In this document: positions 3,279 to 22,605 of the stretch, one piece after another
How the letters are laid out: every line of letters starts with the position of its first letter
How positions within the stretch are numbered: position 1 is the stretch's first letter
Notes under the pieces: model-generated
Told to the model about the DNA's origin: nothing
The model's input: the letters and a program-made list of their open reading frames with translations, nothing else
Databases searched by the model: none
DNA from: Acidimicrobiaceae bacterium
Lineage (GTDB): Bacteria > Actinomycetota > Acidimicrobiia > Acidimicrobiales > RAAP-2
Assembly (NCBI GenBank): GCA_947455165.1
Contig: CANGMP010000007.1
Span: forward strand, 1 to 42,017
Length of the DNA stretch: 42,017 nt
Direction: 5' to 3'
Translations under genes and position numbers: made by a program

Positions 3279-3779
3279 CTAGGCCTCGACGGCCGGCAAG
3301 TTCTTAAGGATCTCACGACCCTCAATGGCGATGGAGCGACGGAAGAGTCGCTCGACCGAGGCAATGGCGATGGCCTCGCTGGCCACGCGGCCCGTCCAGA
3401 GCAGGTAGCCCGCGACGAGTCCGAGCAAACGGTCGGAGACTTCATCACCGTGGAGCAAGATCACGTCGCCGCGATTCATCGAGGCCTGCAGGTCGGTGTA
3501 GCAGGCCCGCATGATTTCGGTCTGGTCGCCCTCGCCCAAGATGGGGTAGGTGGCCGCCGCGAAGTGGTGCTCGTCGTAGGCCTCTTGGTTGAGCGGCAGC
3601 GCGAGGATGGAGACCATCCGGGTGAACTTGTGGTTCTTCAACCACCGAAGTTCTTCGTCCCGTCGAACACGACGATGGACCAGCGTGGAGCCGCCGGGCC
3701 GTTCGGCTACGGCGAGTTTGTCCTTAAAGACCCACGTAAAGTTGCGCGGTTCAATGCCCGCCGCCCACTTACCTCTCAC
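3279..3779 (-). CDS. Dual-specificity-phosphatase-like protein lacking the catalytic Cys
   Basis: 166 residues. The C-terminal half resembles the phosphatase fold: a strand ending VILLH (about 106-110), then a loop GDEVSDR and a helix LLGLVAGYLLW. In cysteine phosphatases this position carries H-C-x5-R; here it is H110-G111-DEVSD-R117, so the nucleophilic Cys is Gly while His and Arg are kept. The upstream part (MVSILALPLN, then HHFAAATYPIL) fits the beta-strand and general-acid-loop region of such enzymes. It begins at a GTG that overlaps the folP stop as GTGA, with AGAGGTGG upstream, so it is co-translated inside the folate operon between folP and folB. It could be a pseudophosphatase, a binding protein, or an enzyme with different chemistry. 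Confidence 0.7.
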   Translation of the reverse strand: MRGKWAAGIEPRNFTWVFKDKLAVAERPGGSTLVHRRVRRDEELRWLKNHKFTRMVSILALPLNQEAYDEHHFAAATYPILGEGDQTEIMRACYTDLQASMNRGDVILLHGDEVSDRLLGLVAGYLLWTGRVASEAIAIASVERLFRRSIAIEGREILKNLPAVEA

Positions 3780-4573
3780 GCAACCACCTCTTCAGTCGGC
3801 ATTGCCAACAGCTCACGCAGTTGCATCGCAACTGCCACGTCATGTACGCGAATCACATCAGCACCATAAAGCAACGACCACGCTTCCGTAGCAACGGAAC
3901 CTTCGAGTCGGTCTTGGACTTCAAGAAACTCAGGGGCGAGCGTACCGAGAAAACGCTTACGACTGGTGCCAATGAGCAACTGTGATGCGGTTTGGTCACA
4001 CAGTGCACGGAAAACATCGAGGTGGGCCAGGAGCGACAGATTGTGCTCAACCGTCTTGCCAAACCCAATTCCGGGATCTAGCCAAAGTTCAGGAACGTTG
4101 GCGGCGGCAGCGCGAGCGGCCACGCCGGCGAGAAAGTCGCGCACTTCAATCACGACATCTTCGTAGTGAGGATTGTCCTGCATCGTGCGACTGTCACCTT
4201 GGCGGTGCATGGCGACGTAGCCAACCTGCAACTCGCCCGCGACGTCGACCAACGTCGCCGACACGTCATTGATGATTGAAGCGCCGGCCGCGACGGCGGC
4301 GCGGGCGACCGACTCTTTTTGCGTGTCGATCGATACGGGACCGAGTGGGGCCAGTGCTTCAACAATGGGCAAGACGCGAGCGAGTTCGTCGGCCTCGCTC
4401 ACGCTGTCGGCGCCCGGACGCGTCGACTCGCCACCAATGTCGACAATGTCAACGCCCCGAGCGAAAAACGCCCGACCCTGGGCGATGGCCTCGTCGATGG
4501 ATGCGCTGCGGCCACCGGGGTAGAACGAGTCGGGGGTGATGTTGATAATTCCCATCACACGAGGGAGAGTCAC
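3776..4573 (-). CDS. folP: Dihydropteroate synthase
   Basis: Condenses hydroxymethyl-dihydropterin pyrophosphate with p-aminobenzoate; the sulfonamide target. A TIM-barrel protein of 265 residues. Signature motifs in order: MGIINITPDSF (about 7-17), DIVDIGGESTRPGA (about 42-55), the VSIDTQK strand, INDVSA, LDPGIGFGKT and the C-terminal SRKRF loop and IRVHDV. The GTG start lies 5 nt after the folE TAG. The order folE-folP-folB-folK matches the actinobacterial folate cluster. Confidence 0.97.
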   Translation of the reverse strand: MTLPRVMGIINITPDSFYPGGRSASIDEAIAQGRAFFARGVDIVDIGGESTRPGADSVSEADELARVLPIVEALAPLGPVSIDTQKESVARAAVAAGASIINDVSATLVDVAGELQVGYVAMHRQGDSRTMQDNPHYEDVVIEVRDFLAGVAARAAAANVPELWLDPGIGFGKTVEHNLSLLAHLDVFRALCDQTASQLLIGTSRKRFLGTLAPEFLEVQDRLEGSVATEAWSLLYGADVIRVHDVAVAMQLRELLAMPTEEVVA

Positions 4574-5148: not shown

Positions 5149-5717
5149 GAACCCACTCCCTTGTAGGTGTAGATGCCGTCGAGGTTGCGGTACCGCTCGG
5201 CGACGTCGAGGCCGTAGCCCACCACGAACGTGGAGGGAATTGAAAAGCCGACGTACTTGAGCGACTGTTCAACCTTCTGCTCGCCTTCTTTTAAGAGGAG
5301 GGCGCAGACTTCGAGACTGCGAGGCTTACGCGAACCGAGGTACTTGCGCAGGTAGTTGAGCGTCAGACCCGAATCAACAATGTCCTCAACGATGAGGACA
5401 TCACGACCCTCAATGTCGGACTCGAGGTCCTTAACGATGCGCACAACACCGCTGGACTTCGTGGCGGCGCCGTAGGAGGAGACGGCCATGAAGTCAATGT
5501 CGACGGGCAGGCGCACGGCTCGCATGAGGTCACTCATGAAGGTCACCGCACCCTTGAGAACACACACCAGCAGTGGTGGGTTGTCGGCGTAGTCAATGGC
5601 GATCTGGTCACCGAGTTCGGCGATACGGGCGTGGATCTGTTCGGCCGACAAGACCACGCCAGCGAGGTCGTCTCCAGTCCACGCCAGATGACTTGGGATT
5701 CCCTCTGGAGCGCTCAC
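5145..5717 (-). CDS. hpt: Hypoxanthine phosphoribosyltransferase
   Basis: Salvages hypoxanthine (and probably guanine) to IMP or GMP using PRPP. The PRPP-binding motif [14 protein letters not shown], the [11 protein letters not shown] flexible loop region, the [14 protein letters not shown] strand and the C-terminal [16 protein letters not shown] are diagnostic. The reading frame stays open far upstream into tilS, so the start is not obvious. I choose the GTG at 5717, 25 nt after the tilS stop, giving 190 residues, close to the family norm; a GTG at 5657 is a shorter alternative. It sits between tilS and folE as in other actinobacteria. Confidence 0.93.
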
Positions 5718-5742
5718 GACCTGACAGGGTAGTGGCAGAAAT

Positions 5743-6630
5743 TCAGGAGAGAGAAAGGTACTGGTCTTTTCGGGCAATGCGCCGACCACCACTGATTTCG
5801 CAGGCGATGTGCTCGCCGTGGATGACCGCGATAACCCTGGTGACTTCGTCCAACGTGGGCGGGTGGGTTCCGTCGGCCTCGTCGGTCGTGGTGAGTTGCG
5901 TGCGAACCCACCGGCGCAGACGAGCCAGTCCCCACGTTTGAAGCTCGCGACAGTCAATTTCGTCGAGACGGCGCGTGGCGTCCGCCCCAGCCAGTTCGGT
6001 CAGCCACGCGGCATCCTCGGCCACCACATGGGCCTGGCGAGCCAGGACAGGAACCATGTCACGCTGGCCAATGTCGTTGAGTTGAGGCAACAGTCGGTGG
6101 CGCACGGCGTTACGCCGAAAGGACTCATCGAGATTGGTGGGGTCATCAATGAAGGGCTGGCCGCAAACTTCGACAAAGGACCTCAGTGCCGCTCGACGAA
6201 CGTGGACGAGTGGCTTGGCGGGATCATTCACCATTGGGGAGAGTCCGTCGAGACCGGCTCCCCACAACAGATTGAGCACCATCGTCTCAGCGAGGTCATC
6301 CATCGTGTGGCCGGTCAACGCACCGACGGGCACGACGGAACGTCGGGCGGCCCGAGCACGAGACTCGACGTTGCCACCCGGCTCGATGTGGACATCGTGG
6401 ACCGTTACCTCGAGGCCGAGTCGTTCTCCGAGATCGAGCACGAGGTGGGCGTCAACGTCGCTGCTCTCACGGAGGTGATGGTTGACGTGGTGGAGGTGAG
6501 CCACGAGCCCGTGCTCGTGAGCGAGCAGGGCCAGGCCGACCGAGTCAGGGCCCCCGGAGACGGCGAGGTCGACCGCGGTGCCGCGTTCGGGAAAGCGGCA
6601 GAGGCTCAACAGTTCTGCGGCGGAGGACAC
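5743..6630 (-). CDS. tilS: tRNA(Ile)-lysidine synthetase
   Basis: Attaches lysine to the wobble C of the tRNA-Ile CAU anticodon so that it reads AUA. The ATP-pyrophosphatase P-loop is SGGPDS (about 25-30), followed by [30 protein letters not shown] and the [19 protein letters not shown] signature. With 295 residues it is the short form, without the long C-terminal domains of E. coli TilS. The GTG start is preceded at exactly 6 nt by TATCGT, so the message is probably leaderless and this is the head of the ten-gene folate/pantothenate run. Confidence 0.94.
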
Positions 6631-6636
6631 GGGGTC

Positions 6637-6642
6637 ACGATA
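6637..6642 (-). promoter_or_regulatory. Candidate -10 box of leaderless tilS promoter
   Basis: TATCGT read on the minus strand, followed by 6 nt and then the tilS GTG. No ribosome site fits between. The same TAnnnT plus 6-7 nt geometry recurs at several transcription-unit heads in the window. No clear TTGACA-like -35 is visible. Confidence 0.5.
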
Positions 6643-6663
6643 CGCCCCGAGTCACCACACCAT

Positions 6664-6682
6664 TTTGATAACGGTTCTCATT
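6664..6682. promoter_or_regulatory. Candidate Zur/Fur operator overlapping the ZIP promoter
   Basis: TGATAAC-G-GTTCTCA at 6666-6680 is a 7-1-7 inverted repeat with a single mismatch between the arms, the layout of Fur/Zur boxes in actinobacteria (TGAnAAT-n-ATTnTCA type). It lies between a -35-like TTGATA (6665-6670) and the -10, directly before a zinc-type transporter and a Fur-family gene, so autoregulated repression by zinc is the simple reading. It could also touch the divergent tilS promoter. Confidence 0.65.
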
Positions 6683-6693
6683 TGTCCTAGAGT
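6665..6693 (+). promoter_or_regulatory. Candidate promoter of ZIP-zur-pgeF, leaderless
   Basis: TTGATA (6665-6670), a 17-nt spacer, then TAGAGT (6688-6693), then 6 nt to the ATG at 6700. Transcription would begin at or next to the start codon. The spacer contains the candidate Zur operator, so a bound repressor would block polymerase. Confidence 0.55.
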
Positions 6694-6699
6694 GACGTC

Positions 6700-7437
6700 A
6701 TGTTCCCGGCCGTCATCTTCGCCTTCATAACGGCCGGCGCCACCACCGTCGGAGGCTTTGTCGCCCTGCGGACGCGTGACCGCCTCCACCTCGTCCTTGG
6801 ATTCTCGGCCGGCCTCTTGCTCGGCCTCGTCGGCTTTGACCTGTTGCCAGAGGTCTACGGCCGCAACCATCACATGACCCTCGGTGCTCGCACCGTCTCG
6901 ATTGCGCTCGTGGGCGGATTCTTTCTGTTGCATCTCATTGAGAAGTTCTTCGCCACCCACGAACCCCACGAGTCGGACTATCACGCCGACCACGACCACA
7001 AGCACGTCGTCGGCGCCTTGAGCGCCCTGGCCTTCTCCGGCCACGTCTTTTTAGACGGCGTCGGCATTGGCGCCGCCTTTCGCATTAGCAACTCACTCGG
7101 GTACGCCGTTTTTCTCGCCTTGTTGATTCACGCCTTCAGTGACGGCCTCAACACGGTCTCGTTTCTGATCAAGAACGGCCGCTGGTCGGCCAAGGCCAAG
7201 TTGCTCCTCATCCTCGACGCCCTCGCCCGCGTCTCGGGAGCCGTTCTCGGTTCCTACGTGTTGATTGGTGAGAGCGGCATCGCTCTCTATCTCGCCCTCT
7301 TTACCGGCGTCGTGATCTACATCGCCACGTCCCACATCCTCCCTGAAGCCCACGCCAGCCACCCCTCTCGTTGGACGCTCGTCGCCTCAATGGTCGGCAT
7401 CGCGCTGATGTGGCTCATCACCGCCCATGGCGCATAA
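6700..7437 (+). CDS. ZIP-family divalent metal transporter
   Basis: A 245-residue membrane protein with about seven or eight hydrophobic segments that should import zinc or a similar divalent cation. It has a His-rich cytoplasmic loop (YHADHDHKH, about 107-115), the metal-site segment SGHVFLDGVGIG in one helix, HAFSDGLN in the next, and HILPEAH near the end, all typical of ZIP helices. The ATG is 6 nt after a -10 box, implying a leaderless message. The fur-family gene starts inside its last codons, so the transporter and its likely regulator are co-expressed behind a Zur-type operator. Confidence 0.9.
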   Translation: MFPAVIFAFITAGATTVGGFVALRTRDRLHLVLGFSAGLLLGLVGFDLLPEVYGRNHHMTLGARTVSIALVGGFFLLHLIEKFFATHEPHESDYHADHDHKHVVGALSALAFSGHVFLDGVGIGAAFRISNSLGYAVFLALLIHAFSDGLNTVSFLIKNGRWSAKAKLLLILDALARVSGAVLGSYVLIGESGIALYLALFTGVVIYIATSHILPEAHASHPSRWTLVASMVGIALMWLITAHGA

Positions 7438-7801
7438 GACCCGGCCCGTCATCCTGCGGGCCTTTCGGGGCATCGACGGCTTTGCCAGCGCCCGCGAACT
7501 CCACGCCCAGGCCGTTGGTAATGGTGACGCTCTGGGGTTGGCCACCGTCTACCGAGAGCTTCGTCGCATGGTCAGCGAAGAGATTGTCGACGTCGTCCAC
7601 GACCTGGACGGTGAAGCGCGCTATCGCCACTGTGACGAAGCCCACCATCACCACCTCGTCTGCGAACGATGCGGACTCACGCGGGAAATAGCCGGGGAAG
7701 AAATCGAGACCTGGATCATCGGTGTCGCCCAGTCGGCCGGCTTTCATCAGATTCGTCACACCATCGAGCTCGTAGGGCTGTGTTCGACGTGCGCGAGTTA
7801 A
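7427..7801 (+). CDS. zur: Fur-family regulator, probable zinc repressor Zur
   Basis: 124 residues with the Fur architecture: N-terminal winged helix (LHAQAVGNGDALGLATVYREL, split over about residues 25-46) and a C-terminal dimer and metal domain with HHHHLVCERCG and the second CSTC pair, the structural zinc site. Zur is preferred over Fur or PerR because the gene overlaps the end of a ZIP transporter by 11 nt and the pair sits behind a Fur/Zur-like inverted repeat. The next gene, pgeF, starts inside its last codons, so all three form one transcription unit. Confidence 0.85.
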   Translation: MAHKTRPVILRAFRGIDGFASARELHAQAVGNGDALGLATVYRELRRMVSEEIVDVVHDLDGEARYRHCDEAHHHHLVCERCGLTREIAGEEIETWIIGVAQSAGFHQIRHTIELVGLCSTCAS

Positions 7802-8550
7802 TCCCCTTCCCCCTCGCGCAACGGGGACCTCTCGAAGTTCTCGAACTTCCCGGGGTGAGCGAACTCGGCGTCGACGCCTTCATCACGACCCGCCACGGTG
7901 GCGTCAGCGATGGACCGTTCGCCACCCTCAATCTCAGCTACGCCCAGGGCGACGAGGCGACCAACGTGCGAGAGAACGAAGCCCGTGTCGCCGAAGCCCT
8001 CGGCGTCGCCACCCTTCGTCGCGTACGTCAAACCCACTCGTCAATTGCGCTACGCAGCCGCGAGTGCGCGGCCGACGTCGAAGCCGACGCCATCATCACG
8101 AGTGACGTTGACGACGGCGTGGCGATCATCGTGGCCGACTGCACTCCCCTATTAATTGTGAGCCCGGCCAGCCATCAACTAGCCGTCGTCCACGCCGGCG
8201 GGCGAGGGCTGGCCGGTGGGGTTGTTGAGAACACGCTCGCCATGGTCGATGGTGAGCGCGCTCAGCTCCGCGTCTTTGTGGGTCCCGGTATTTCAGGCGA
8301 GACCTATCAAGTGGGTCCCGAGGTCGTCGCGGCCTCGCCCTACTTTGCCGCTAACGCCGTCGCCGACACCGGCGACCGTTCGCTGCTCAACACTCGAGGA
8401 GCGGCCGTTGACATTCTCTGTGCCCACGGTGTCACCGCGAGCAACATCATTGTCTCGTCGCAGACGACCGACGGTGCCGCACTGTTTTTCTCCGATCGGG
8501 CGCAGCGACCATGTGGGCGCTTTGCCCTCGTGGCCAAGTGGCAGTCGTAG
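7789..8550 (+). CDS. pgeF: PgeF-type purine nucleoside phosphorylase (laccase-domain protein)
   Basis: Member of the YfiH/LACC1 family, shown in other organisms to act as a purine nucleoside phosphorylase and adenosine deaminase and to be linked to peptidoglycan editing. About 253 residues. Metal ligands appear in place: His of RQTHSS, Cys of VADCTPLL and His of AVVHAGGRGLAGG. The usual HAGWRG motif is HAGGRG here, so the Trp is missing, and the Cys pair normally following GPxIGP is absent. The GTG at 7789 is chosen as the start, overlapping the zur stop with AGGG upstream; the GTG at 7780 is an alternative. A peptidoglycan link would fit the two genes that follow. Confidence 0.88.
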   Translation: MRELIPFPLAQRGPLEVLELPGVSELGVDAFITTRHGGVSDGPFATLNLSYAQGDEATNVRENEARVAEALGVATLRRVRQTHSSIALRSRECAADVEADAIITSDVDDGVAIIVADCTPLLIVSPASHQLAVVHAGGRGLAGGVVENTLAMVDGERAQLRVFVGPGISGETYQVGPEVVAASPYFAANAVADTGDRSLLNTRGAAVDILCAHGVTASNIIVSSQTTDGAALFFSDRAQRPCGRFALVAKWQS

Positions 8551-8579
8551 GCTGAGGGGACGACGAGTGGAGGGTCTCA

Positions 8580-9869
8580 ATGGCTAGTCGCGCCAAGCAG
8601 TTCCGCTACAGCGGACTCGACATTACGGCCACTTCTCTCGTTGGTCACTACGAGCTCGACGAGTACTCCTTCACCGAAACGGTGACCTTTGATGTATCGG
8701 GCGACCTTCGCGAACCGGGCCCTCGTGATATTGCGACCCTCTGGTACCTCGTCGCCGGCCTCTCCTACTACAAGGCCGGCGCACCCGCACTGGTGGACCT
8801 CGGCGATACACCGGTCACCCCCGAGGCACGAGCACTCTTGCGCGCCGCCCTCCTCGAGGGGCTCGGCGAATACTCGTTCCGCAACCAGATTTGGCTCGGG
8901 GACGTAGAGATCATCGAGGGAACTCCCGCCACGACTCGTCATCACGAAGTCGACCCCCTGCGCGTCCTCACCCCGTTTGGTGGCGGCATCGACTCGGTCG
9001 TGACCGTTCGCTCCCTCAGCCCCGCCCTCAACCAATCACTCTTTGTCATGAGCCCTCCGAGCGGCACCTTCGCGCCACTCGAAGCCACGGCCGCCGTTAT
9101 GGATCTACCGATCGTGCGGGCCACTCGCCATCTCGACCCCCAGATCACAGCTAAGAATCCCGACTTTTTCAATGGCCACGTCCCCGTCACGGCGATGGTG
9201 ACCCTGTTGGCCTGCATCGCGGCACTGGCCGATGATCGCGGCGGCGTCGTTATGAGTAATGAACACTCCTCATCAGCTCCGAACATGGAGTGGGAGGGCC
9301 TCGCCGTAAACCACCAGTGGAGTAAGTCCTGGGTCGCCGAACAACTCCTCGGCGACGCCGTCGCTAGTTACATCGGCAGCCAATTCACGGTCGCCAGCTT
9401 TCTGCGCGATCGCAGCGAACTCTGGGTCGCCCAACAGTTCGCCGGCTTCACCGACGTGCACGGCGTCTTTCGCAGCTGCAACCGGGCCTTTCACCAGTCG
9501 GCCACCGAGCGCTTGGCTACCTGGTGCGGCCGGTGCGACAAGTGTCTCTTTATCAACCTCGTGCTCGCCCCGTTCATCTCACGTCGTTCACTGGACGAGA
9601 TCTTTCAGGGTGCCGCTCCGCTGACCAACCCCGACCTGCGCGAACAGTTGCGGGCCCTGGTCGGGCTCGGCGACGAAAAGAAGCCGTTTGAGTGCGTGGG
9701 CGATCCCGACGAGTGTGCCGTGGCCCTCACCACGATTATCGAGATGCCCGACTACGCCAACGAGGAACACCTGCACCACATTGCTCGCGAAGTCGGCTCG
9801 GACCAGAGTCTCGATGAACTACTCGAACCCCTAGGAGTAAGCCGTGTCCCGGCCTCGTGGCTTCGCTGA
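8580..9869 (+). CDS. murL: Probable UDP-MurNAc-L-Ala-L-Glu epimerase, MurL-like
   Basis: 429 residues. The features I associate with MurL, the ATP-dependent enzyme that flips the terminal L-Glu of UDP-MurNAc-L-Ala-L-Glu to D-Glu, are a PP-loop-like PFGGGIDSVV (about 132-141), a MSNEHSSSAPN segment followed by AVNHQWSKSW (about 226-251), and a Cys cluster C300, C316, C319, C322 (WCGRCDKC). A GGAGGG ribosome site precedes the ATG. The downstream Mur ligase starts inside its last codons, which matches the MurD2-MurL pairing first described in Xanthomonas. The assignment rests on remembered family motifs plus context. Confidence 0.82.
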   Translation: MASRAKQFRYSGLDITATSLVGHYELDEYSFTETVTFDVSGDLREPGPRDIATLWYLVAGLSYYKAGAPALVDLGDTPVTPEARALLRAALLEGLGEYSFRNQIWLGDVEIIEGTPATTRHHEVDPLRVLTPFGGGIDSVVTVRSLSPALNQSLFVMSPPSGTFAPLEATAAVMDLPIVRATRHLDPQITAKNPDFFNGHVPVTAMVTLLACIAALADDRGGVVMSNEHSSSAPNMEWEGLAVNHQWSKSWVAEQLLGDAVASYIGSQFTVASFLRDRSELWVAQQFAGFTDVHGVFRSCNRAFHQSATERLATWCGRCDKCLFINLVLAPFISRRSLDEIFQGAAPLTNPDLREQLRALVGLGDEKKPFECVGDPDECAVALTTIIEMPDYANEEHLHHIAREVGSDQSLDELLEPLGVSRVPASWLR

Positions 9870-11145
9870 CCTCGCCGGTCACCGCGTCGGCGTCTGGGGC
9901 ATCGGCGTCGAAGGTCGGGCCACCATTGCCGCACTGCAGGCCGTGGGCGCCACGGTCGTGGCCGTCGACGATAACGACCTCGGAGAGCCGGACGTCTTAC
10001 TAACGGCCAGCGGGGGCTTTGACGCCCTCCTCGAGTGCGACATCGTGCTCAAGAGTCCCGGCATCCCCGCCCGCCGACGTGACGTGCTCGATCTGGAGTC
10101 TCGCGGCGTACCGCGCACCTCGGCCCTCGCGGTCTGGTTGGCCGGCACTGACCGAGCGAACGTGATTGCCGTCACCGGCACCAAGGGCAAATCAACGACG
10201 ACCTCGCTGATTCAGTTCATGCTCGAGGCCTGCGGTGAATCGGCCCGCAGCTGCGGCAATATCGGCCTGCCGCCCTATGACCCCGCGGGCCCCGAAGCTA
10301 CGTGGACCGTTCTCGAAGTCTCGAGCTACCAGGCCCTCGACGTCACCGACGCCCCTGGCGTCGTGGTCGTTACCTCGCTCGGCGAAGACCACCTCGACTG
10401 GCACGGGGATATGGAGCAGTACGTCAACGACAAGTTGCAATTGACCCGAGCCGAGGGCCATCACCTCACCGTCGTACCCGACGACGTGGTCGTGCTTATC
10501 CACCGCGACCTCATGGGTGGCGAGATTGTTGTTGAGCACGCCAGTGACGTCGAACTGGCTGAGCTCCTGGGACTCATTGGGCAACACAACGCTCGAAACG
10601 TCGCCTTGGCGCTGCACGCGACGGCCAAGGCCCTCCGTCGCCCCGTCGAGGACGTTCGCGCCGCGACGGTGCGCAATGCCACGAACTTTTCACCCCTGCC
10701 GGGTCGACTGACGCTGGTGCACCGCGCTCAGATCGACACGTCGCACATTGACTTTGTCGACGACGGTCTGGCCACCAACGTGGTGGCCGTCCTCGCGGCC
10801 GTCTCGGCCTTTCGGGGACGACCGGTCACGCTGATTATGGGGGGTTTTGACCGCGGCGTGAGCTACGCCCACCTCGCTCACGGACTCCGGGAAGCCAGTG
10901 ATCAACTTTCGGTGGTCGTCATGGGACCGGCCGGTGAGCGGATTGCCGACGCCGTTGCCCACTCAGAGTTCAATCTCGATGTGGAGCGAGCGGCCGATCT
11001 CGATGACGCCGTCGCCCGAGCCGTGTCACATGCGGCGCAGACCGGTGGCGTCGTCCTCTTCTCGCCCGGGGCCGCCAGCTTTGACCAGTTCAAGAATTGG
11101 GCTGAGCGAAGCGCGCACTTCAGCGCCCTCGCCCGTCGTTACTAA
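9844..11145 (+). CDS. murD: Mur ligase, MurD/MurD2-like
   Basis: 433-residue Mur ligase of peptidoglycan precursor synthesis. It has an N-terminal UDP-binding Rossmann-like domain (VGVWGIGVEGRATIAAL), the ATP-binding VTGTKGKSTTT, the LEVSSYQ and SLGEDHLDWHG central motifs, and a C-terminal domain with LIMGGFDRG. This is the MurD subfamily. Because it overlaps the murL-like gene by 26 nt it is more likely MurD2, which adds L-Glu instead of D-Glu to UDP-MurNAc-L-Ala, with MurL then epimerising the product. The start GTG has AGGAG 6 nt upstream. Substrate stereochemistry cannot be read from sequence. Confidence 0.88.
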   Translation: MSRPRGFADLAGHRVGVWGIGVEGRATIAALQAVGATVVAVDDNDLGEPDVLLTASGGFDALLECDIVLKSPGIPARRRDVLDLESRGVPRTSALAVWLAGTDRANVIAVTGTKGKSTTTSLIQFMLEACGESARSCGNIGLPPYDPAGPEATWTVLEVSSYQALDVTDAPGVVVVTSLGEDHLDWHGDMEQYVNDKLQLTRAEGHHLTVVPDDVVVLIHRDLMGGEIVVEHASDVELAELLGLIGQHNARNVALALHATAKALRRPVEDVRAATVRNATNFSPLPGRLTLVHRAQIDTSHIDFVDDGLATNVVAVLAAVSAFRGRPVTLIMGGFDRGVSYAHLAHGLREASDQLSVVVMGPAGERIADAVAHSEFNLDVERAADLDDAVARAVSHAAQTGGVVLFSPGAASFDQFKNWAERSAHFSALARRY

Positions 11146-18830: not shown

Positions 18831-21206
18831 TTAGTGGTCGTCGGAGCTGGCGCCGGCCACAATTTCGTATTCGGGATTCATAATCACGGCTTCACGATTA
18901 AACGACGTGACTGTGCCTGAAACCAGCAGGCGAACGCCTCGTTCGACTCCCGGAACCGCATCGCGGCCCTGGAAGACAAGCTTGATCGAACCGGTGCTGT
19001 CGGTAAGAAGGCACGACAACGACTGACCGTTGTTGCCCTTTTCGACGGTTATCGACTTCACTCGACCGGCCAACTTGGCCCGTTCGCGCAGGGTGACGGC
19101 ACCAATTTCGCCGGCGTGGGCCTCGTTAGCACGGGTTTCAAGCAGGGTGTCAGCCTCGAGGTGAGCGTCTTCACGCAGGCCGCCACGGGCCACAACGTCG
19201 CTCGGGATCTCCTGGACGGTACCGGTGTCGCGGGCCATCCGGAAGGGCACGATGGTCGCGGCAGTGCGCGGTACGTGCATGACGGCTGACGCAATGGAGT
19301 CAGCCGTGCGGTCGTGGAGGAGTCGCTGGAGGCGTGACGTGAAGCCTCGTCGAGGCAAGATCACCATGGCAAAGACCTTGGGGTCTCGCACCATGTCGGA
19401 AACGACCTCGAGTGCGGCGCGATCGACGCGACGGTCCTCACACTCCATGATTTCGAGTGGGATCGTGGCCGAGGCCGAGTCCTTACGACCCCAACGCTCT
19501 TCGAGCTCCTTGGTGACGGCCGGGTCGATGTCAAAGTGAATGGCGCGAACCGTCGAGGCGCTGAGGGTCTTGCAGTATGCGAGAGCCCGCTCGGTCGCCA
19601 GGTCGTACTGGTCGACAAAGACGACAATGCGGTTGTGCGACGTGGTCAGTGCCGTCGCGCCACTCTCGGCCTCGAAGGCCTCTTCTTCGCGCGAGTAGGC
19701 ACGGTGAAGACGAATGAGCCCGAAGAACATGAATGGTGCAATGGTGACCACCATCCAGGCACCTTCGCCAAACTTCACAACACCGAAGATGAGCGCCACG
19801 ATCAGACAGGTGAAGGCCGAGCCACCGTTAACGATGGCGCCGAGCTTCCAGTGCTTTTCACGCTTGATCCAGTGGCGTTTGGCCATGCCGGCGCCGGCCA
19901 TTGTGAATGCCGTGAAAACGCCAATGGCGTAGAGCGAGATCAGTCCGTTCACGCTGGCATTAAAGACGAAGATCAAAATCAGAGCCATCGCTCCGAGCCA
20001 GATGATGCCAGTCGAAAAGGCGAGGCGGTGCCCACGCTTGGTGAGTTGTCGAGGCAGGTACTTGTCGGTGGCGACGAAGTTGGCCAAGAACGGAAAGCCG
20101 TTGAAGGCCGTGTTGGCACCCGTGTAGAGGATGGCCACCGTGGCGAGCTGGACCAAGAGATAGATGACGTGGCCAAACCCGTGGGCGCCAAAGACGGCCG
20201 AGACTTCCTGCGAGACCACGGTCGGCGAACCGGCCTGGTAGGGCAGCGCGTGCGTCCATGTAGCGAGCATGGTCGTACCAATAAGCAAGAAACTCAGGAT
20301 GCCGGCCATGATGAGCATGACCTTGCGGGCGTTGCGGGCTTCGGGGCGGGCGAAACCCGAAACCGAGTCAGAAATCGCCTCAAGACCCGTGAGCGAGGAT
20401 CCACCGTTGGCGTAGGCACGCAGCAGTGTCAGGAACGCCACGCCCATTAAGAAGCCGTGTCCCGGTGAACCGAGGTGACCGCCAACGAGGAGTTCGGCCG
20501 CGGGCTGCTTGACGAAGTGGAGCGCACCGGCGAAGTGCTTGTAAATACCAACGATGATCGTGAGCGACATCATGGCGATAAAGAAGTACGACGGGAAAGC
20601 GAAGTAGGCACCGGCTTCCTTCAGACCTCGCAAGTTTCCGTAAATAAGAAAGAGCACCACACCGACCGTGATCCACAGCGTGTACGGAAGCAGATTGGGG
20701 AAGGCACTCGTCATCGCAGCCGTACCGGCCGAACTCTGTACCGCGACAGTCACGATGTAGTCGATGAGGAGGGCTACCGCCGTGACTTGGGCCGTCTTGG
20801 GGCCGAAGTTGTCACGGGTGACGATGTAACTACCGCCCTTGATGGAGTAGGCGCCGATGACGTCGAGGTAGCTCAGCGTGACGAGTACCAACACGCCGAG
20901 GATGACGAACATGATTGGCACGAGCAGCGAAAAGGCCGCGATGCCGATCGCCGGGGTGAGCTGGGTCAAGATCTGCTCGGCACCGTAGGACGAGGACGAG
21001 ATGCAGTCGGGTGCGAGCACTCCGAGGGCAATGGGGTTATTCAGTCGCTCACCGTGCAACTGCTCTGAGACGTACGGCTTACCGAGGAAGATGCGCTTAA
21101 GGCGGTAACCCAAAGTCTCGGGGTAAAACGTGCGAGTGTCAGCGTGCGAGGTCAGGACCGGAGAGTTGTGACGAATCTGTTCACCGGCGTTATCCACGGA
21201 GGTCAT
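18831..21206 (-). CDS. APC-superfamily permease with USP-like and OB-fold C-terminal domains
   Basis: 791 residues in three parts. Residues about 55-505 are a 12-segment APC transporter with the SSSSYGAEQIL motif in helix 1, as in the KimA/YdaO-like branch (potassium or amino-acid transport). Residues about 523-655 resemble the universal-stress-protein-like cytosolic domain of that branch (RIVVFVDQYDLATERALAY). Residues about 705-785 read as a small OB-fold nucleic-acid-binding-type domain (GRVKSITVEKG, then LTDSTGSIKLVFQG and LVSGTVTSF). It is divergent from ceoB-ceoC, as in mycobacteria and streptomycetes, where the OB-fold protein is a separate gene nearby. The ATG at 21206 is preferred over a TTG five codons upstream. 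Substrate unproven; K+ is the best guess. Confidence 0.85.
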   Translation of the reverse strand: MTSVDNAGEQIRHNSPVLTSHADTRTFYPETLGYRLKRIFLGKPYVSEQLHGERLNNPIALGVLAPDCISSSSYGAEQILTQLTPAIGIAAFSLLVPIMFVILGVLVLVTLSYLDVIGAYSIKGGSYIVTRDNFGPKTAQVTAVALLIDYIVTVAVQSSAGTAAMTSAFPNLLPYTLWITVGVVLFLIYGNLRGLKEAGAYFAFPSYFFIAMMSLTIIVGIYKHFAGALHFVKQPAAELLVGGHLGSPGHGFLMGVAFLTLLRAYANGGSSLTGLEAISDSVSGFARPEARNARKVMLIMAGILSFLLIGTTMLATWTHALPYQAGSPTVVSQEVSAVFGAHGFGHVIYLLVQLATVAILYTGANTAFNGFPFLANFVATDKYLPRQLTKRGHRLAFSTGIIWLGAMALILIFVFNASVNGLISLYAIGVFTAFTMAGAGMAKRHWIKREKHWKLGAIVNGGSAFTCLIVALIFGVVKFGEGAWMVVTIAPFMFFGLIRLHRAYSREEEAFEAESGATALTTSHNRIVVFVDQYDLATERALAYCKTLSASTVRAIHFDIDPAVTKELEERWGRKDSASATIPLEIMECEDRRVDRAALEVVSDMVRDPKVFAMVILPRRGFTSRLQRLLHDRTADSIASAVMHVPRTAATIVPFRMARDTGTVQEIPSDVVARGGLREDAHLEADTLLETRANEAHAGEIGAVTLRERAKLAGRVKSITVEKGNNGQSLSCLLTDSTGSIKLVFQGRDAVPGVERGVRLLVSGTVTSFNREAVIMNPEYEIVAGASSDDH

Positions 21207-21238
21207 CCTACGACTGCACAATTACTTTCTAGAGAAAC

Positions 21239-21256
21239 TTGCGTTTTATATCGCAA
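21239..21256. promoter_or_regulatory. Inverted repeat in the permease/ceoB divergent promoter region
   Basis: TTGCG-ttttatat-CGCAA, a perfect 5-bp inverted repeat around an AT-rich core that could itself be a -10 for ceoB. It lies 33 nt from the permease ATG and just before ceoB, so a regulator bound here could act on both. Confidence 0.35.
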
Positions 21257-21274
21257 AGTGGTCAGATAGGCAAC

Positions 21275-21931
21275 GTGCATATCGTCGTCGTAGGTTGTGG
21301 CCGAGTTGGCAGTGACCTCGCCACCCAATTATCTGAAGATGGCCACAGCGTCGCCATTATTGATAAGAGTGCGGACTCGTTTCGCCGACTCGGAGAAAGC
21401 TTCAACGGCAAGCGAATCGTCGGATCGGGCTTTGACCGCAACGTTTTGAGTCAGGCCGGCGCCGGTGAAGCTCAGGCTTTCGCTGCCGTCACCAACGGCG
21501 ACAACACCAACATTCTCTGCGCCCGTATTGCCCAAAGCACGTACGGCATCAAGGACGTGGTGGCTCGTATTTACGACCCCCAGCGCGCCACGATCTACCA
21601 ACGTCTCGGCATCCCCACGGTGGCCACGGTCACGTGGACAACCAGCCAAGTCAAGCGGTGGTTGTTGAACGAAGACGCCACGATCGCGTGGACAGACGAC
21701 TCGGCCACACTCCAGGTCCTCGAGCGATTCTTGCCCGACAACCTGGCCGGTCAGCCGCTCAAGGATCTCAATGTCGGCAGCGACATTCGAGTTATTGGTG
21801 TCGTTCGCGGCAGCCAGGGCCGACTCGACGTCGAAGGCCTCTACGGCCAAGAGGACGACAAGGTCCTCTTCCTCGTCACCCCTGAGGGCGGTCGTCAGTT
21901 GAACGAAGTTCTGGGGATTGGTCGATCATGA
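21275..21931 (+). CDS. ceoB: TrkA-type potassium uptake regulatory subunit, CeoB
   Basis: 218 residues: N-terminal RCK/TrkA-N Rossmann domain beginning HIVVVGCGRVGSDLA (NAD-binding GxGxxGS) with an acidic IIDKS at the second strand, and a C-terminal RCK_C-like domain (GQPLKDLNVGSDIRVIGVVR). Such subunits gate K+ transporters through NAD(H) or nucleotide binding. The start is a GTG at 21275 because the glycine motif begins there; earlier in-frame codons are unlike the family. Its stop overlaps ceoC as ATGA. No TrkH/TrkG channel is in the window; the divergent permease is the obvious partner. Confidence 0.92.
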   Translation: MHIVVVGCGRVGSDLATQLSEDGHSVAIIDKSADSFRRLGESFNGKRIVGSGFDRNVLSQAGAGEAQAFAAVTNGDNTNILCARIAQSTYGIKDVVARIYDPQRATIYQRLGIPTVATVTWTTSQVKRWLLNEDATIAWTDDSATLQVLERFLPDNLAGQPLKDLNVGSDIRVIGVVRGSQGRLDVEGLYGQEDDKVLFLVTPEGGRQLNEVLGIGRS

Positions 21932-22605
21932 AGATTGTCATTGCCGGTGGTGGCAGCGTCGGAACGGCCATTGCGACCGACCTCGCTGAACGCAACCACG
22001 AAATCGTCCTGATTGAGCAGCGCCTCGATGCCATCTCCAAGCTCCGCGACCAGCTCCAGTCACCCAATGTGCGTGTCGAACACGGTGACGCGTGCGAAGT
22101 TAAGTCGTTGAACCGAGCCAATATCGCCGGGGCGGACGTCATGATTGCCGCCACTGGCGACGATGAAGACAACCTGGTTGTGAGTTGGCTCGCCCGCACC
22201 CACCTCGGCATCACCCGAGTAATCGCTCGCGTGAACAATTCACGCAACGAGTGGCTCTTCGACGAGAACTGGGGTGTTGACGTCAAAGTCTCCATCCCCA
22301 CGTTGATCACCTCGTTGGTCGATGAGTTCGTCGAAGTCGGTGCCGTGGTGCCGATCATGGACGTGGCCCAGGGTTCCATGGAGATGGTTGAAGTCACCCT
22401 AAACGACGACGCTCCGGTCATCGTGAACCAGCAGACCCTCGGCGAAATCTCGCTGCCCGACGTCGCCAAGGTCGTCGCCATTGTTCGTGACGAAATGCCC
22501 CTCTCGCCGCAGCCCACCACTTCCTTTCAAGAGCACGACCACGTCTTGCTCTTGGTGAAGAAGGGCGAGCACGGTTGCCTGAACGGAATCTTCACCGCCC
22601 ACTAA
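21928..22605 (+). CDS. ceoC: TrkA-type potassium uptake regulatory subunit, CeoC
   Basis: 225 residues, second RCK protein of the pair: MKIVIAGGGSVGTAIATDLA NAD-binding motif, LIEQRLDAISKLRD, the IAATGDDEDNLVVSWLA segment typical of RCK domains, and a C-terminal RCK_C domain (GSMEMVEVTLN onwards). Two paralogous RCK proteins encoded in tandem probably form mixed or stacked octameric gating rings. The start ATG overlaps the ceoB TGA. Confidence 0.93.
   Translation: MKIVIAGGGSVGTAIATDLAERNHEIVLIEQRLDAISKLRDQLQSPNVRVEHGDACEVKSLNRANIAGADVMIAATGDDEDNLVVSWLARTHLGITRVIARVNNSRNEWLFDENWGVDVKVSIPTLITSLVDEFVEVGAVVPIMDVAQGSMEMVEVTLNDDAPVIVNQQTLGEISLPDVAKVVAIVRDEMPLSPQPTTSFQEHDHVLLLVKKGEHGCLNGIFTAH

Follow-up and report, generated by a model that had tools for sequence, protein, structure and literature searches.

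KimA (YdaO) of Bacillus subtilis, a K+/H+ symporter of the KUP family, consists of a transmembrane domain and a cytosolic domain called phosphopantetheine-adenylyltransferase-like, and it is inhibited by cyclic di-AMP (c-di-AMP) bound in the cytosolic domain (PMC10284832). The roles of its K+ and proton residues (D36, Y43, T121, T230, E233, and Y377) have been described (PMC6994465, PMC10284832). In Mycobacterium tuberculosis, the Trk system is described as CeoB plus CeoC (PMC8358298, PMC13163235), and a triple mutant still imports K+ through an unknown transporter (PMC13163235). Streptomyces venezuelae has KimA-like and RCK proteins and no TrkH or KtrB (PMC10117811), and an OB-fold protein of Streptomyces (Cluster 13947) is encoded in a region syntenic with trkA and kdpDE (PMC13118837). 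Here, we analyzed a stretch of 42,017 nucleotides from an Acidimicrobiaceae bacterium (contig CANGMP010000007.1, positions 1–42,017; hereafter, the window), in which the gene for a KimA-like permease with a C-terminal OB-fold domain lies divergent from a ceoB–ceoC pair. Based on homology and genomic context, we propose, with a probability of roughly 0.68, that this locus encodes one K+-uptake system made up of KimA, CeoB and CeoC (CeoBC), and the OB fold, the last of these being a dedicated regulatory and assembly domain.

The permease and its C-terminal domain

AA_permease_2 (PF13520) was the only Pfam permease family to match the protein (residues 75–479, 76 bits, cut-off 27), and the first-pass annotation had named the protein an APC permease followed by a USP-like domain. 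Both names had to be corrected. When the protein was compared with solved structures using phmmer, KimA (6s3k) was the sole match (E = 1.3e−90), spanning residues 39–641 and hence the transmembrane and cytosolic domains, so the supposed USP-like segment matches the KimA cytosolic domain. A Foldseek search with the full-length AlphaFold2 (AF2) model likewise placed three KimA entries on top (8b70: E = 4e−33, TMt 0.72). Copies from the first 60 loci were aligned with B. subtilis KimA; in this alignment, the window protein keeps the equivalents of all six K+/H+ residues, those of D36, Y43, E233, and Y377 are invariant in all 55 sampled relatives, and T121 and T230 are kept in all except one and two copies, respectively. 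Because of the KimA match and the retention of these residues, we regard the permease, by homology, as a K+/H+ symporter of the KimA subfamily (KUP family) rather than as an amino-acid permease. As a separate observation, about 150–180 additional residues separate the transmembrane domain from the cytosolic domain in the KimA proteins of several families (L096–L101 and L109).

The C-terminus of the permease matched the tRNA_anti-codon OB fold (PF01336) at residues 716–787 (30.4 bits, cut-off 27). Residues 690–796 were modeled by AF2 as an OB barrel (predicted local distance difference test [pLDDT] 85.2; predicted template modeling score 0.75), and the full-length model places this domain after a linker, with a pLDDT under 50 at model residues 657–682. 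The nearest structures to the OB model were RPA, SSB, the anticodon domains of AspRS, AsnRS, and LysRS, and RecG (Foldseek E of about 1e−4), and a VIA-align superposition on an RPA OB domain (3e0e) covered 88 residues at a root-mean-square deviation of 2.0 (Z = 13.7). A profile built from separate OB proteins alone, with the fused ones left out, scored the window OB domain at 83.3 bits, compared with 9.5 bits for the best of 1000 shuffled sequences, and gave no unrelated match in the examined loci. The OB assignment is beyond chance, and by this profile comparison the tail is homologous to the separate OB proteins encoded beside KimA and CeoBC. The OB fold that the first-pass annotation had recognized in the C-terminal segment stands, the segment is not an RCK_C domain, and no separate OB orthologue was found in the window genome: the only family members detected there are the window protein and a fused paralogue on another contig (C19). 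CcmE was considered as the OB type and rejected (E = 0.11, below the cut-off). When the OB profile was searched against PDB sequences, the top matches were ubiquitin chains, which we took as spurious, and RecG appeared at E = 0.02; this search identified no informative relative.

Fused and split forms and their genomic partners

Within the order to which the window genome belongs, such fusions are common rather than unique to the window: with the permease as the query, fused KimA–OB proteins were found in about 44 of the 148 genomes of the order, most of them encoded divergently from ceoB–ceoC exactly as in the window. Split forms also occur there, either as an OB open reading frame (ORF) that overlaps or abuts the end of KimA (L047, L048, L050, L051, L054, L055, and L056) or as an OB gene beside ceoC, the divergent KimA gene then lying at the opposite end (L049, L058, L113, and L114). 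In other classes, the OB gene lies immediately upstream of KimA (L096–L098) or beyond ceoC (e.g., L099–L101, L103–L108, and L111). The mycobacterial order of KimA, ceoB–ceoC, DUF3159, and OB that the first-pass annotation had described was found in a mycobacterium-like locus (L106), where an MFS gene stands between ceoC and the DUF3159 gene (PF11361, 249 bits) and the OB family profile detects the OB gene at 3e−16. The Chloroflexi loci (L010–L013) show a tandem arrangement of KimA, ceoB, and ceoC in which we found no OB protein. We also noted that a contig of an uncultured actinobacterium carries a small, orphan OB-fold ORF similar to the family (L014, about 3660–3897, plus strand); neither KimA nor CeoBC occurs within the 11.9 kb examined, and the locus is uninformative on the OB question.

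On a phylogenetic tree of 81 KimA domains (a quick tree with Shimodaira–Hasegawa-like approximate likelihood ratio support only and a midpoint root), the fused state required 3 changes, compared with a mean of 27 after shuffling, and the fused forms nested in a clade that has separate OB genes on its early branches. This topology is most simply read as an accessory OB gene having moved beside KimA before being fused to it. The homology of the tail to a separate neighboring OB protein also supports the earlier suggestion that the fusion predicts a partnership between the split proteins.

We also surveyed 158 genomes of Actinomycetota, calling the OB family at ≥50 bits; the resulting counts are lower bounds, at most 33 candidates having been scored per genome, and the second fused copy of a mycobacterium-like genome (G236) was missed. 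The OB family was present in at least 47 of these genomes, 46 of which also had KimA, whereas 14 genomes had KimA without OB and 97 had neither (Fisher p = 4e−26). Most OB copies were encoded within 10 kb of KimA (44/48) and of CeoC (45/48), and every OB-bearing genome had a CeoC-like protein (47/47). TrkH, the membrane subunit normally served by TrkA proteins, and KimA almost exclude each other: the 148 genomes of the order comprised 9 with both, 77 with KimA only, 54 with TrkH only, and 8 with neither (p = 4e−22; because the genomes are related, both of these p-values overstate independence and express the strength of a pattern, not a number of independent events). The corresponding numbers in the phylum were 12, 48, 78, and 20, and TrkH occurred in only 7 of the 47 OB-bearing genomes. 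TrkH (PF02386) was not found in the window genome or in the four sampled members of its family.

Further copies extend this association. Contig C19 of the window genome (L046) carries a second fused KimA–OB gene (5701–8157, minus strand), divergent from a gene pair (8181–10273, plus strand) that encodes a KdpD-like histidine kinase (DUF4118, lacking a long N-terminal stretch) together with a KdpE-like regulator; KdpA was searched for in this genome and not found. This neighborhood independently links the fused protein to potassium, and the kdpDE-type pair seems to govern a KimA here. The mycobacterium-like genome mentioned above has a split locus (L111) and the second, fused copy (L110, 4552–6957, minus strand); the latter falls, on the KimA-domain tree, within the clade formed by the window's order, and it was likely acquired by lateral transfer. 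Another genome (G283) seems to carry a truncated relative of the fused gene (C1:815559–816710).

The proposed complex and its alternatives

In the model that we favor, KimA is a proton-coupled K+ symporter, as indicated by homology and its intact K+/H+ residues, and would be the likely membrane partner of CeoBC, with the divergently encoded CeoB and CeoC acting as its RCK regulators; synteny, the phyletic pattern, and the absence of TrkH all point in this direction. KimA would form a dimer with swapped cytosolic domains, below which the OB domain, on its flexible linker, could dock onto the assembly of cytosolic domains and RCK proteins. The state of the OB domain might then be passed on to the TM8–TM9 loop, which would open or lock the inner gate. 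From the fusion, the co-occurrence, and the neighborhood of the gene, we infer that an OB fold that is fused here and separate in relatives has a dedicated regulatory and assembly role, and that, with CeoBC regulating KimA, it joins or gates the complex. As a guess, a phosphate-bearing ligand, such as a nucleotide or RNA, may bind to the conserved basic strand 1 (R/K720 and R/K722, with R753).

Several points weigh against this proposal. Interaction, transport, and binding in the complex are all deduced from sequences and models. The OB fold is a common shape that does not prove nucleic-acid binding, and nucleotide or RNA binding by this domain is a guess. A minority of genomes carry KimA and TrkH together, the sampled genomes are related, and the 89.5% completeness of the window genome (G000) makes absences from it weak when taken alone. 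In addition, eight fused copies in the tree set, including the second copy of the window genome, had no ceoBC detected within 1.5 kb in the stretch examined; therefore, the OB domain apparently does not need adjacent CeoBC in order to act.

The strongest alternative, to which we give somewhat less than an even chance, is that the OB domain is purely a protein–protein scaffold that binds no ligand and connects KimA either with CeoB/CeoC or within its own dimer. OB folds can bind proteins, engineered OBodies are among the structural neighbors of the window domain, this domain carries little net charge, and all OB-bearing genomes of the phylum sample have a CeoC-like protein. However, the domain is structurally closest to OB folds that bind nucleic acids, ceoBC is not found near some of the fused copies, and the conserved positions of the family (R712, G719, R/K720, R/K722, D741, T/S743-G744, F750, G752-R753, N782-P783, and Y785) include basic residues kept across the fused and split forms (R712, 100%; R/K753, 100%; R/K720, 90%; R/K722, 81%), as are the aromatic residue at 750 and the D741-x-[TS]-G744 motif.

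Control by c-di-AMP as in Bacillus, with the OB or RCK parts adding further c-di-AMP sensing, appears improbable, although B. subtilis KimA is regulated in this way, 101 of the order's 148 genomes encode a diadenylate cyclase (DAC) domain (PF02457), and most KimA copies retain Arg337. No DAC domain was detectable in 10 of the 44 fused-bearing genomes, including all five sampled genomes of the window's family (0/5; G000 is 89.5% complete and the other four are each 97% complete). At the KimA pocket positions compared (R337, V457, P479, A481, V506, H579, N580, Q581, and S582), the window protein keeps R337 but has E, F, D, and F at 457, 479, 481, and 506, respectively, and H-D-R-T in place of H-N-Q-S. 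Positions 457, 479, 481, 506, 568, 580, and 581 consistently differ from B. subtilis throughout the OB-fused clade, the residues being much alike in DAC-positive and DAC-negative lineages, whereas the pocket is closer to that of B. subtilis in the Chloroflexi copies and in copies with OB beyond ceoC (L047_3725, L049_3395, and L058_3858). Furthermore, CeoB and CeoC of the window lack the RCK_C signature for c-di-AMP described in PMC10117811. In the same study, no c-di-AMP binding was seen for the RCK_C domain of Streptomyces Vnz_27460, a neighbor by locus tag of the KimA-like Vnz_27465 (PMC10117811). Because no DAC was found in the sampled family, the pocket is altered, the signature is missing, and the Vnz_27460 domain did not bind it, c-di-AMP, which the first-pass annotation had named for binding tests, is probably not the signal in the window's lineage, and a different signal is more likely. 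The family itself, a lineage of small genomes in an order that mostly has DAC, seems to have lost c-di-AMP signaling.

It is very improbable that the protein is an amino-acid permease, as its Pfam name would have it, with an OB fusion that is merely peculiar to the lineage and has no bearing on K+; the KimA match over both domains and the invariant K+ and proton residues argue against this, as do the partnership with RCK proteins, the near-exclusivity with TrkH, and the paralogue beside KdpDE-like genes. Although the assembly is fragmented (94 contigs), the chance that the fusion is an assembly or frameshift artifact, or the OB domain a chance match, is negligible: the ORF is uninterrupted, the same architecture recurs in dozens of independent genomes, and the fold is confident and homologous to split OB genes, so the fusion is no artifact.

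In the proposed KimA–CeoBC–OB system, to judge from the fused and split forms, the transporter for CeoBC in the "Trk" system would be the adjacent KimA homologue, and the small uncharacterized OB protein would be a subunit of KimA. This would suggest an overlooked K+-uptake complex that has largely replaced classical Trk in Actinomycetota, as well as the recruitment of a nucleic-acid-type fold for the control of ion transport. A bolder version, which we consider tentative and rather doubtful, is that this complex constitutes a distinct class of K+ importer and the main K+ uptake of TrkH-less Actinomycetota, the mycobacterial "Trk" included, with the OB domain sensing a nucleotide or RNA as a signal distinct from c-di-AMP.

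Locus layout and comparison with described systems

The coordinates and domain order given by the first-pass annotation for this locus were correct (Table 1). The two RCK genes overlap by 4 bases; for TrkA_N, both proteins exceed the Pfam cut-off of 23.8 bits, whereas for TrkA_C (cut-off 27), only CeoC does so, CeoB scoring 20.9 bits. Rfam identified only tRNAs in the window, with no ydaO or other riboswitch. An inverted repeat (TTGCG-N8-CGCAA, 21239–21256; 0.09 expected per window) lies between the divergent genes; it was considered as an operator and dropped, being broken in the near relatives L008 and L018.

Table 1. Features of the KimA–OB/ceoBC locus in the window
Feature	Position	Strand	Evidence or remark
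Permease ORF	18831–21221	minus	796 aa; probable start ATG 21206
Predicted KimA-type K+/H+ symporter with C-terminal OB-fold domain	18831–21206	minus	PF13520, PF01336, phmmer to KimA 6s3k, Foldseek 8b70
Transmembrane domain, residues ~39–512	19686–21107	minus	Alignment to KimA; AF2 model
Cytosolic domain, residues ~525–660, equivalent of KimA c-di-AMP-binding domain; altered pocket	19242–19649	minus	Alignment, AF2 model
Linker, residues ~661–705	19107–19241	minus	Partly disordered in AF2 model, then helix; net charge −5
OB-fold domain, residues ~706–789	18855–19106	minus	Pfam, AF2 model, Foldseek, VIA-align, split-only profile
Divergent intergenic region, about 68 bp between probable starts	21207–21274		
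CeoB-like RCK protein	21275–21931	plus	ORF from 21239; GTG start 21275 conserved in relatives; TrkA_N 90.9 bits
CeoC-like RCK protein	21928–22605	plus	TrkA_N 86.4 bits, TrkA_C 33.6 bits

A literature search identified no paper that links a KimA homologue and an OB protein to CeoBC or reports their fusion, including in work on Rv2690c, Rv2693c, and Rv2694c and on OB folds with TrkA or KimA; subscription papers lay mostly outside this search, so it is no proof of novelty.

Compared with B. subtilis KimA, the window protein has the same transmembrane fold, cytosolic domain, and K+-coordinating and proton-coupling residues; it differs in its additional linker and C-terminal OB domain, its replaced c-di-AMP pocket residues, the divergent RCK gene pair, and the lack of an Rfam match to the ydaO riboswitch in the window. 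With the OB folds of PF01336 (the AspRS/LysRS anticodon domain, RPA, and the RecG wedge), its tail shares the fold and the D-x-[TS]-G motif (Z = 10.4–13.7) at about 11–23% identity, but here the domain is carried on a membrane transporter. The Streptomyces Cluster 13947 protein, encoded by a separate gene near trkA, probably belongs to the same family as the window OB domain; unlike in the window, synteny alone was reported for it, with neither a fusion nor a link to KimA (PMC13118837). Finally, CeoB and CeoC of M. tuberculosis (Rv2691–Rv2692) are, as in the window, an overlapping TrkA-type RCK pair; in the mycobacterial arrangement, however, OB is a separate gene beyond DUF3159, whereas in the window it forms the tail of the permease, in a genome in which DUF3159 was not found.

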